Source: a virus. Taken from it: a DNA stretch of 36,371 nt. Every line of letters starts with the position of its first letter. The first letter of the stretch is position 1. Positions 13,288 to 35,303 of this stretch are shown here, in pieces. Under the pieces are notes generated by a model. The model was not told the origin of the DNA. It searched no databases and saw nothing but the letters and a program-made list of their open reading frames with translations. The DNA is taken from the IMG/VR virus record IMGVR_UViG_3300035687_000014, positions 1 through 36,371 of that record; one strand, written 5' to 3'. The position numbers were made by a program, and so were the translations under genes.

Positions 13288-13341
13288 CCCGAACCAGAAA
13301 GTCAAGCACCGCGACGCGCGTATACGACGCCGTCGCTGATC

Positions 13342-13405
13342 CGCGCGCTTGCGCGCGTCAACCGCCCCGCCGCGGCGCTTCGCCGCGCGCCCGGGCGCGA
13401 TTTTT
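13342..13405 (+). terminator. Row of GC hairpins and a terminator before the capsid gene
   Basis: CGCGCGC/GCGCGCG (13342-13348 with 13351-13357) and GCGGCG/CGCCGC (13372-13377 with 13381-13386) precede a perfect palindrome CGCGCCCGGGCGCG (13386-13399) that is followed by ATTTTT. The last looks like an intrinsic terminator only a few bases before the ribosome site of the major capsid gene. It could separate scaffold from capsid transcripts or protect the capsid mRNA 5' end after processing. Confidence 0.55.
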
Positions 13406-13415
13406 GGAGCCCTGC

Positions 13416-14444
13416 GTGGACTACGCGCTCAAAGCCATGGACAGCGTCACCAACGCCAACTACGAGCAGAAGGACCTGTCCAACCTCATCACCCGCCAGG
13501 ACGGCCCCCCGCGGCCCTTCCTGCAAACCATCGGCATCGCCCAGGCGAAGGGCAAGACACACTACTGGGACGAGGTCCCGCTGAACCAAGTCGGTCGCGG
13601 CCTGAGTTCGTACGCCGAAGGCGGCAAGCCCGGTTCGCAGACCAACCCGCCGGTGCAGCTCTCGAACATCGTGTGCCGCGTCGGTCAGGTGGCGAAGGTC
13701 ACCGACACGGAGGCCGCGATCTGGACGGCCGGCGGCACCCGCCGCCTCGCCGACGGCGAGCTCGAGCGGCTCATCCAAGAGGCCATCGATCTCGACACCG
13801 AGCTGAAAATGGAAGAGCAGCTCAACGAGATGGAGTGGATGCTCCTCAACGGCAACAAGACCAACACCGAGGCGTGGGCCGGCGGCCAGTGCGACGGCGT
13901 CGTGCAGGTGCTGACCACCAACAACATCCTCGCCGACGGCGGCAGCGGCGCAGCGATGCCCGTCACGCGCGCCAACGCGGTCAACTTCGAGCCCGTCGTC
14001 ATGCAGCTCGCCGCGAACATCCGCGCGACGTACGCGCCCGCCGTGCCGGACCTGTTCCTGTGCACGACGGCCACGAAGGGCTGCGTCAACGGCTTCATCG
14101 GCGGCGGCGCCGGCCGGCCGATCGTCCAGCTCGTCAACGCCGACTCCGCCGGCTTCGTCGCCGGTCAGGAAGTCGACGAGTACCAGACCGGGTACTTCAA
14201 GGTTCGCGTCGTGCAGGAGCCGCAGATCGAGATCGCCGCCCTCGGCGGCAAGGCGACGCCGCCCACCACGGCGCGCGCGCTGATGCTCTCGACCAAGCGC
14301 TTCAAACGTGCGGACCTCATCCCGCTGCGTTCCGAGCCGCTCGCGCGCATCAACACCTCGGTCGAGCGCATGATCACCTGGGAGGGTACCCTCGAGTTCC
14401 GCAACCAGAAGGAATCGGGCCAGATCCGCAACCTGGTTGCCTGA
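13416..14444 (+). CDS. Major capsid protein (SU10/DUF5309-like)
   Basis: The 342-residue protein resembles the DUF5309/SU10 major capsid group: a start with NYEQKDLSNLITRQDGPPRPFL, a THYWDEVPL strand, a long middle helix (LIQEAIDLDTELKMEEQLNEMEWMLLNG), and a C-terminal part ending in ITWEGTLEF. These form HK97-fold icosahedral shells. The start GTG 13416 is chosen for TGGAG 8 bases upstream; in-frame TTG 13404 lacks one. The gene follows protease and scaffold, as expected. A tRNA-like sequence follows 55 bases after the TGA stop. Confidence 0.88.
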   Translation: MDYALKAMDSVTNANYEQKDLSNLITRQDGPPRPFLQTIGIAQAKGKTHYWDEVPLNQVGRGLSSYAEGGKPGSQTNPPVQLSNIVCRVGQVAKVTDTEAAIWTAGGTRRLADGELERLIQEAIDLDTELKMEEQLNEMEWMLLNGNKTNTEAWAGGQCDGVVQVLTTNNILADGGSGAAMPVTRANAVNFEPVVMQLAANIRATYAPAVPDLFLCTTATKGCVNGFIGGGAGRPIVQLVNADSAGFVAGQEVDEYQTGYFKVRVVQEPQIEIAALGGKATPPTTARALMLSTKRFKRADLIPLRSEPLARINTSVERMITWEGTLEFRNQKESGQIRNLVA

Positions 14445-14499
14445 TCGGTTCCCTCGCCCCACCGGATCGTCGGCGCGTTCGCGCGCTGGCGGTCTCGTC

Positions 14500-14572
14500 G
14501 TGCGCCCACGTTCGATTGGTCGATGGCTGGCCTTCAAAGCCGGCGATGCGGGTTCGAGCCCCGCGGCGCGCG
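14500..14572 (+). tRNA. tRNA-like cloverleaf with UCA anticodon (opal-reading or Sec-type)
   Basis: Acceptor stem 14500-14506 with 14565-14571 (7 bp, one G-U), extendable to 10 bp with 14497-14499/14572-14574. The anticodon stem is 14527-14531 with 14539-14543, with a canonical loop CTTCAAA that puts TCA at 14534-14536. The T stem is 14548-14552 with 14560-14564, loop TTCGAGC. The D arm is weak (14509-14512 with 14522-14525, two G-U) but has GG at 14518-14519. The variable loop is 4 bases and no CCA is encoded. Position 8 is C and the usual A14 is missing, so it may be degenerate. It lacks the long variable arm of SelC. Confidence 0.65.
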
Positions 14573-14602
14573 ACACATCACCCAAGCCAACCGGGAGCCG
14601 AG

Positions 14603-15292
14603 ATGCCGATCCTGTTTCAATCGCACATCGAGTCGCTCAGCGTCATGCGCGCCGACGGGACGGCGATCACCTTTCGGGATGGCCGGTTCCTCGCCGAGCG
14701 CGAGGACGACATCGCGCAGTTGCGCTGCCATCCGCGCTACACCAGGGAAGCCGGCCAGGCCGGATCAGCACCGGCCGCCGCACCGACCCGCACGCCGGTC
14801 GTTGCGGCGACCAGCACAGCGGCCGATCTGGCCGCGTTCCCGTTCGAGCGCCGTACGTACGGCCGCGGCAACGAGCCGTTCGTCGTGCTGCACCTCAGTC
14901 AGAATCTCGGACACGTTCGCGAAGACGCCGCGGCGATCGCCCTGGCGTTCGACCGCGCGCTGCCGGCGAGCGCAAAGGCCGAACTCCGCTTCGTCACAGC
15001 CGCGCGCGGTGACATCCAGGCTGGTCCGCGCGCGTCAGTCGTCGAGCGCGAGCTCGGTCTGGCGGGGCGCCTGACGCTGTACCGCGAGGCTCACCTGATC
15101 GTGCGCTCGGCGTCCGACGCGGCCGCAGCATTCGCAGCAGATGCGACTGCAGCTGGGACGCCGGTCGTCGTCCTCACCGACGGCGACGTCGACGAGCTGG
15201 CTCGGGCCATCGCGGACGCCGAGGCGTCGTACCCGCGCGTATCGGCTCAGGCAGCCAAGGCCGAGAAGCAGCTACGCGCCGCGCGGCGCTGA
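14603..15292 (+). CDS. Structural-region protein with possible GT-B-like C-terminal domain
   Basis: ATG 14603 has GGGAG 6 bases upstream. The first 50 residues look like a small beta domain (MPILFQSHIESLSVMRADGTA), then an Ala/Pro linker. Residues about 80-225 read as an alternating alpha/beta unit. LGLAGRLTLYREAHLIVRSA, then AAGTPVVVLTDGDVDELARAI, resembles the C-terminal half of GT4-type glycosyltransferases, where that stretch binds the sugar nucleotide. The usual E-x7-E motif is not evident. It could be a head-decoration or connector protein instead. No family is confirmed. Confidence 0.6.
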   Translation: MPILFQSHIESLSVMRADGTAITFRDGRFLAEREDDIAQLRCHPRYTREAGQAGSAPAAAPTRTPVVAATSTAADLAAFPFERRTYGRGNEPFVVLHLSQNLGHVREDAAAIALAFDRALPASAKAELRFVTAARGDIQAGPRASVVERELGLAGRLTLYREAHLIVRSASDAAAAFAADATAAGTPVVVLTDGDVDELARAIADAEASYPRVSAQAAKAEKQLRAARR

Positions 15293-18134: not shown

Positions 18135-18698
18135 ATGCGTTGCGCGTTTTGCGGTACTGCGATCGACCTGAAACAGCGCTCGGCCAAGTTCTGCAGCAGG
18201 CGCTGCAAAGACAAGGCGTGGCGCCGTGCGAACCCCGGATACCAGGCCGAGTGGCTGGAGTCCCATCGACAAGACGGCGTGAGCTACACAACGGCTTGGC
18301 AACGCGCTAAACAAGCACGCGACCAGACGGGAAAACGATTCGACTGGGCATTGTGGTACAAGAACCATCGCGACCAGGAAGTCGAGCGGCAGAGAAAATG
18401 GCGCAGCGATAATCCAGAGTCCGCCCGCGCTTGCGACCGGCGAAAGCGAGCCAAGCGGGCGCGAGCAGTCGGCTCGCTTAGCGCACGAGAATGGCGCGCT
18501 ATCGTGCTTAAGCAGCGCGGACGCTGCGCGGACTGCCGCAAACGAACCAAACTGACCATTGATCACGTCGTTCCGCTCGCTGCCGGTGGATCCCACTACG
18601 CATTCAATATCCAAGGCTTATGCGGCAAGTGTAACACCGTCAAGCGTGACCGCATTGCAGTCGGTACGCAGTATACGCTATTTGATCGTATAGCGTAA
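18135..18698 (+). CDS. HNH endonuclease (possible homing/moron insert)
   Basis: The 187-residue protein has an N-terminal Cys cluster (Cys3, Cys6, Cys20, Cys24) that looks like a zinc finger, a basic helical middle, and a C-terminal HNH domain. The HNH domain has Cys131 and Cys134, Asp143-His144 as the first catalytic positions, Asn158, then Cys163, Cys166 and Asn167. It cuts DNA with a metal ion. The gene lies between tail genes, is flanked by terminators upstream and a stop-overlapping hairpin, has its own -10 box, and uses many more A/T-ending codons than its neighbours. This is consistent with a late arrival. It may also assist packaging, but that is less likely away from the terminase. 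Confidence 0.9.
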   Translation: MRCAFCGTAIDLKQRSAKFCSRRCKDKAWRRANPGYQAEWLESHRQDGVSYTTAWQRAKQARDQTGKRFDWALWYKNHRDQEVERQRKWRSDNPESARACDRRKRAKRARAVGSLSAREWRAIVLKQRGRCADCRKRTKLTIDHVVPLAAGGSHYAFNIQGLCGKCNTVKRDRIAVGTQYTLFDRIA

Positions 18699-35119: not shown

Positions 35120-35250
35120 CGCCGGCCAATCCCGGCTCTTGAACGCTCCGTGAGCTCCCGCGTCCGCACACTCCGGACGCCCCCGCTTGCGCAAGGCCGC
35201 TCTCCCGGCGCTCACGCGCCGACGGGGACTCGAACCCCGACCTCTGCCCG
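35120..35250 (-). ncRNA. Structured minus-strand RNA with a tRNA-like T-arm near its 5' end
   Basis: Read on the minus strand, a TACAAT -10-like box (35252-35257) is followed by a segment ending in a tRNA-like variable-plus-T-arm. The T stem CGGGG/CCCCG is at 35235-35239 and 35223-35227, with loop TTCGAGT. The acceptor-like TCGGCGC (35216-35222) pairs, through a GTGA tetraloop, with GCGCCGG (35205-35211). A further hairpin GCGTCCG/CGGACGC lies at about 35160-35180. No anticodon arm or complete cloverleaf can be built. It could be a tRNA remnant at an attachment site, a small RNA, or a chance mimic. Confidence 0.35.
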
Positions 35251-35303
35251 CATTGTAGCACGGCGCCCGCCGCGCGAGCGCGGCCGTCCCAAGGAGCCCC
35301 ACC

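Follow-up and report, generated by a model that had tools for sequence, protein, structure and literature searches.

A tRNA-like fold between the capsid gene and the next late gene of a tailed phage: a probable captured tRNA gene that may now serve the late mRNA

A cloverleaf carrying UCA at its anticodon position and lying directly after the major capsid protein gene of a tailed phage raises the question of whether such an RNA reads UGA, serves the transcript in which it lies or is the leftover of a former tRNA gene. The window analyzed is the whole IMG/VR virus record of 36,371 bases (G+C 69%). It contains integrase, terminase, portal, SU10-type capsid protein and tape-measure genes, together with a probable tail tube gene whose score is just below the Pfam cut-off. 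The element is located between two co-directional late genes (Table 1), and no promoter-like or terminator-like match was found between them. The start of the capsid gene, a GTG, was inferred from a GGAG motif and from a related phage, L002, in which the gene likewise begins with GTG; its TGA stop is at 14442-14444. The downstream gene, p1, has no PHROG or Pfam match.

Table 1. Features of the capsid-p1 region, in window coordinates.
Feature	Position	Strand	Basis or remark
Hairpin-rich leader of capsid gene (context; not shown to be part of the element)	13288..13415	+	
Major capsid protein gene, SU10-type	13416..14444	+	PF17236 SU10_MCP 88.7 bits; phrog_1328
Possible closing helix P1, 5' strand (UCGGUUCCC)	14445..14453	+	pairs with 14593-14601, mean probability 0.68
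P2, GC-rich hairpin of 13-14 bp with UUCG loop, directly 5' of the tRNA-like fold	14464..14495	+	
tRNA-like cloverleaf, acceptor extendable to 10 bp	14497..14574	+	sequence; Rfam scores; L002 homologue
UCA at anticodon position	14534..14536	+	sequence; ARAGORN
Possible P1, 3' strand (GGGAGCCGA)	14593..14601	+	holds presumed p1 ribosome-binding site
Gene p1, unknown function, downstream of element	14603..15292	+	orthologues in L002 and L003

The acceptor stem (14500-14506/14565-14571) has 7 bp and can be lengthened to 8 bp from 14499/14572 or to 10 bp (14497-14506/14565-14574). The D stem (14509-14512/14522-14525) comprises 4 bp including two G-U pairs, the anticodon stem (14527-14531/14539-14543) closes the loop CUUCAAA, the variable loop is 4 nt long and the T arm (14548-14564) presents the canonical UUCGA. 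Positions 8, 14 and 21 are all C, and no CCA is encoded. The first-pass annotation had described a cloverleaf after the capsid gene with paired acceptor, anticodon and T arms, a canonical anticodon loop with UCA, a weak D arm, an acceptor extendable to 10 bp, departures from the canonical bases at positions 8 and 14 and no long variable arm of the SelC kind; each of these points was recovered from the sequence. It had also named a poor covariance score as evidence against the gene, and against the general Rfam tRNA model the score is indeed poor, at 25.1 bits (E = 9.5e-5), where the cut-off is 29. On this scale the 34 tRNAs of one Chloroflexota genome score 51-74 bits, all above the window element.

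ARAGORN reported a tRNA-SeC(tca) at 14505-14574, with the acceptor stem mis-registered. The program also returned 6 matches in 100 dinucleotide shuffles of the G+C-rich window, and its call is by itself weak evidence, insufficient alone. A SelC identity was rejected, as the variable arm is absent and the Rfam tRNA-Sec model (RF01852) gave 35.7 bits against a gathering cut-off of 47. A tmRNA was rejected because the match was confined to the T arm, and an intrinsic terminator because a U run is absent. An attachment site at the element is thought unlikely, since the integrase lies 13 kb away. By nearest-neighbour energy the window cloverleaf is computed at -33.4 kcal/mol, versus -41.2 for an alternative fold without the T arm.

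Relatives were sought in IMG/VR with the capsid protein, alone and as two alignments, with the terminase, alone and as an alignment, and with the portal, the adaptor and a DNA pattern of the D arm. All queries together yielded two phages of this lineage, L002 and L003, and one Alicyclobacillus prophage. The operon is common to L002 and L003, whose capsid proteins are 77% and 70% identical to that of the window and whose p1 orthologues are 52% and 40% identical, respectively. Genome contigs provided matches in an Alicyclobacillus prophage and a Chloroflexota prophage, INPHARED gave no match to the capsid or portal, and a close terminase was absent among 400 Chloroflexota genomes. A prophage in a Chloroflexota MAG (L005) shares with the window phage its integrase (47%; L005 184-1008) and capsid protein (39%; L005 8001-9068), hinting at a Chloroflexota-like host. 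In the more distant relatives the capsid gene and its downstream neighbour are separated by little or nothing, and no tRNA-like element lies there. Within the tail gene cluster of the window, an HNH endonuclease gene (18135-18698; PF14279, PF01844) has no match in L002 or L003 and is possibly a homing endonuclease insertion.

L002 carries, in the corresponding gap, an element that ARAGORN labels "tRNA-Asn". It is a homologue of the one in the window, with a local alignment score of 76, where 1000 shuffles reached at most 45. It is this homologous cloverleaf at the same position that is decisive, confirming that the tRNA-like fold between the capsid gene and p1 is real and beyond chance. The L002 element scores 19.4 bits with the Rfam tRNA model. 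Both elements possess the D-loop GG, the T-loop UUCGA and the cloverleaf, with acceptor and T arms kept. All 22 of 22 stem pairs are retained despite 9 substitutions in the 44 paired columns, two pairs carrying changes in both partners and five in one partner. A pair-shuffle control on these two sequences had no power (128 of 500), and simulated substitutions were therefore relied on; the chance of all pairs surviving random substitution was 0 to 4.7e-3, depending on transition bias. Stem columns differ by 20%, compared with 35% for unpaired columns and 34% for four-fold sites of the capsid gene.

The anticodon loop is the region that changed most, from CUUCAAA in the window to CCGUUGG in L002 (6 of 7 bases). 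With C33 in place of U33, and UCA lost, the L002 loop closes to three bases. Because the stems were kept by compensatory change while this loop diverged, selection appears to have held the fold rather than decoding, as judged from two sequences. In L003 the same place shows a borderline resemblance: the Rfam tRNA model gives no score, a covariance model gives 14.5 bits, and 15 and 18 of 1000 shuffles are as good. For L003, a tRNA-like fold reduced in length but complete in its acceptor and T arms was considered and dropped, both model score and alignment being borderline. The trace may be a remnant of the element. Conservation in related phages, to which the first-pass annotation had looked, is found in one of the two relatives, L002. 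The lineage as a whole can do without the element, as L003 keeps a borderline trace only.

A covariance model of the window and L002 elements found matches in 172 of 201 Chloroflexota genomes (E <= 0.001), and the fifteen best, when checked, were ordinary tRNAs. Since a model of the two elements finds ordinary tRNAs, the element is descended from a tRNA. Of 43 tRNAs compared, tRNA-Trp(CCA) is the closest to the window copy, with about 70% identity to a Chloroflexota tRNA-Trp that had itself been picked by the two-element model search. A weak phage match was also a tRNA-Trp, and the L002 copy showed no preference among the compared tRNAs. The window element has the acceptor core GCGCC/GGCGC, the D-loop AUUGG, the T arm and the G73 of the Chloroflexota tRNA-Trp. 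It differs in UCA, C8, C14, C21 and the D stem, and scores 25 bits with the Rfam tRNA model versus 66 for the compared tRNA-Trp. Its G73, G5-C68 and A9 are reported TrpRS identity elements. Given a tRNA-Trp origin, UCA would be a C34-to-U change of the anticodon.

Comparison with other known systems placed the element in no defined class among those compared. In common with tRNA-Sec it has UCA, the loop CUUCAAA, an acceptor of more than 7 bp and a D arm that can form more than 4 bp, but it does not have the variable arm and its score is below the cut-off. Irregular tRNA-like genes with unusual anticodons, including polycistronic ones, are known from forest and peat soil metagenomes (PMC7609411). 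The element resembles these and the allo-tRNAs in being an odd tRNA-like gene with an unusual anticodon; nevertheless, in allo-tRNAs the acceptor branch totals 12 bp, arranged as 8/4 or 9/3, and the variable arm is longer, whereas the window element is 7-8/5 with a 4-nt variable loop. A tRNA-like fold within a longer transcript, as proposed for the element, is a property of MALAT1/MEN-beta, of the phage M3 and C4 RNAs and of operon mRNAs (PMC4919922, PMC11143913). Here the fold is a near-complete cloverleaf descended from a tRNA gene and stands after a capsid gene, and cutting is a proposal. In the open-licence literature no element of this kind was found described downstream of the capsid gene of a phage.

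The flanks of the element are structured as well. A strong hairpin just before it occurs in all three phages (z = -2.55, -5.71 and -3.32). The window sequence of this hairpin shares little with that of L002 and a short similar stretch with that of L003. Pairing between the presumed p1 ribosome-binding site and the bases that follow the capsid stop can be drawn for all three phages, and a P1 closing helix is possible in the window RNA. This pairing is not clearly above chance, as 227, 62 and 66 per 1000 shuffles of the three phages were as good. The whole region of L002 folds with z = -4.95. Upstream, the hairpins of the capsid leader are comparable in L002 and L003 (z = -1.08, -2.02 and -1.77 for window, L002 and L003), with shuffle support in L002 and L003 only.

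The explanation preferred here, which is put forward tentatively, is that a tRNA gene, in the window most like tRNA-Trp, was captured by the phage lineage and now acts in cis, as a structure within the polycistronic late mRNA. Counted in its support are the L002 homologue, the 22 of 22 retained pairs, the changed anticodon loop and the hairpin in all three phages. The most likely function would be that of an RNase P-type cutting signal or a 3'-end-protecting signal in the late mRNA. Bacterial RNase P contacts the acceptor arm, the T arm and the D-loop GG, all of them kept in window and L002, and mitochondrial transcripts are punctuated by tRNAs. In the phage, host tRNA-processing enzymes, RNase P first, would recognize the tRNA-like fold and the mRNA would be cut immediately upstream of the acceptor stem. 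This would leave hairpin P2 at the 3' end of the capsid message, as protection, and give the p1 message a start of its own, so that a very abundant message is separated from a less abundant one. The proposed end of the capsid message can be likened to that of MALAT1, whose tRNA-like element makes an RNA 3' end. Known substrates of RNase P include phage RNAs, polycistronic mRNAs and tRNA-like folds (PMC11143913, PMC4919922). Because the acceptor extends to 10 bp and CCA is not encoded, the element may nevertheless be a poor RNase P substrate. Cutting is made less likely by the length of the acceptor stem, by the alternative fold computed for the window RNA and by the near-loss in L003. The full punctuation proposal, in which a captured tRNA-Trp and the hairpin together make host enzymes cut and cap the capsid message and split it from the rest of the late operon, is rather doubtful.

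A decaying relic of a captured tRNA gene, now non-functional and unequally decayed in the three phages, is nearly as likely as a cis-acting role, although on its own still on the unlikely side. The low tRNA scores of 25.1 and 19.4 bits, the lost anticodon loop of L002, the near-loss in L003 and the non-canonical C8/C14/C21 core are all consistent with decay. Nevertheless, every stem substitution preserves pairing, which would be rare if decay were free, and the stems have diverged less than unpaired columns and four-fold sites. The first-pass annotation had offered both a non-functional remnant and an RNA mimic. The remnant keeps a real chance, since L003 holds only a borderline trace; the tRNA-like mimic is supported, since the stems are held by compensatory changes and the anticodon loop is free to vary. 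Unlikely, although still to be reckoned with, is an intergenic structure that acts without being cut, either shielding the capsid message from 3' exonucleases or restraining p1 translation via P1. The hairpin of the three phages, their possible pairing at the p1 ribosome-binding site and the L002 regional fold would suit such a structure, but P1 is not clearly above chance, and the kept tRNA identity (T loop, D-loop GG) would be left unexplained.

Decoding of UGA, for which the anticodon loop of the window is canonical, was assessed from the stop codons. The portal, capsid and tape-measure genes do end in TGA, as the first-pass annotation had stated. However, in each of the three phages UGA is the stop codon used most often (13 of 23, 12 of 21 and 9 of 18 genes), no UGA was seen inside a conserved sense-strand gene, and the many stops encountered fall, as far as checked, upstream of gene starts or in frames that are antisense or shifted. 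Genome-wide opal decoding is excluded. Because UGA is the most frequent normal stop and UAG closes the capsid genes of both L002 and L003, decoding by the element is also unlikely, and the weak or conditional suppression suggested earlier is disfavored, L002 having lost U33 and UCA. A functional UGA-reading tRNA of the tRNA-Trp(UCA) type with weak or conditional readthrough in the window phage is thus improbable: apart from the anticodon loop and the likeness to tRNA-Trp, with its G73, G5-C68 and A9, nothing supports weak suppression, the L002 copy cannot read UGA, the L003 copy is degenerate and the window element scores below every tRNA of the comparison genome. Slightly less probable still is a trans-acting decoy that occupies a host tRNA-acting enzyme, be it RNase P, a synthetase or an anticodon nuclease. 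Countermeasures of phages against anticodon nucleases are known, and a tRNA fold kept without a decoding loop would fit such a decoy, but the anticodon loop that these nucleases read is not conserved and the location inside the capsid operon is better explained in cis.

If the preferred cis-acting role is correct, tRNA genes of phages can take on a new use, as signals for RNA processing in place of decoding, and odd phage tRNA calls (here selenocysteine and Asn) should be read as recoding with caution. It would also make tRNA punctuation testable in a bacterial virus, and at the gene for which most message is needed.

Two further features were observed in the window. On the minus strand at 35216-35273, just after the promoter-like TGCTACAAT, a second tRNA-derived-looking piece has a perfect T arm (GGGGTTCGAGTCCCC) between GCGCCG and CGGCGC. 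It scores 23.5 bits with the mascRNA model (cut-off 42.5) and 16.3 bits with the R1 model, the latter no better than background. This piece may be what is left of a tRNA gene at an attachment site, with an orientation that does not simply fit. An antisense ORF of 427 aa (13302-14585, minus strand) starts in the tRNA-like element and encodes a "GLEPASPALK"-type peptide, typical of antisense tRNA genes; it is likely spurious and an annotation trap.
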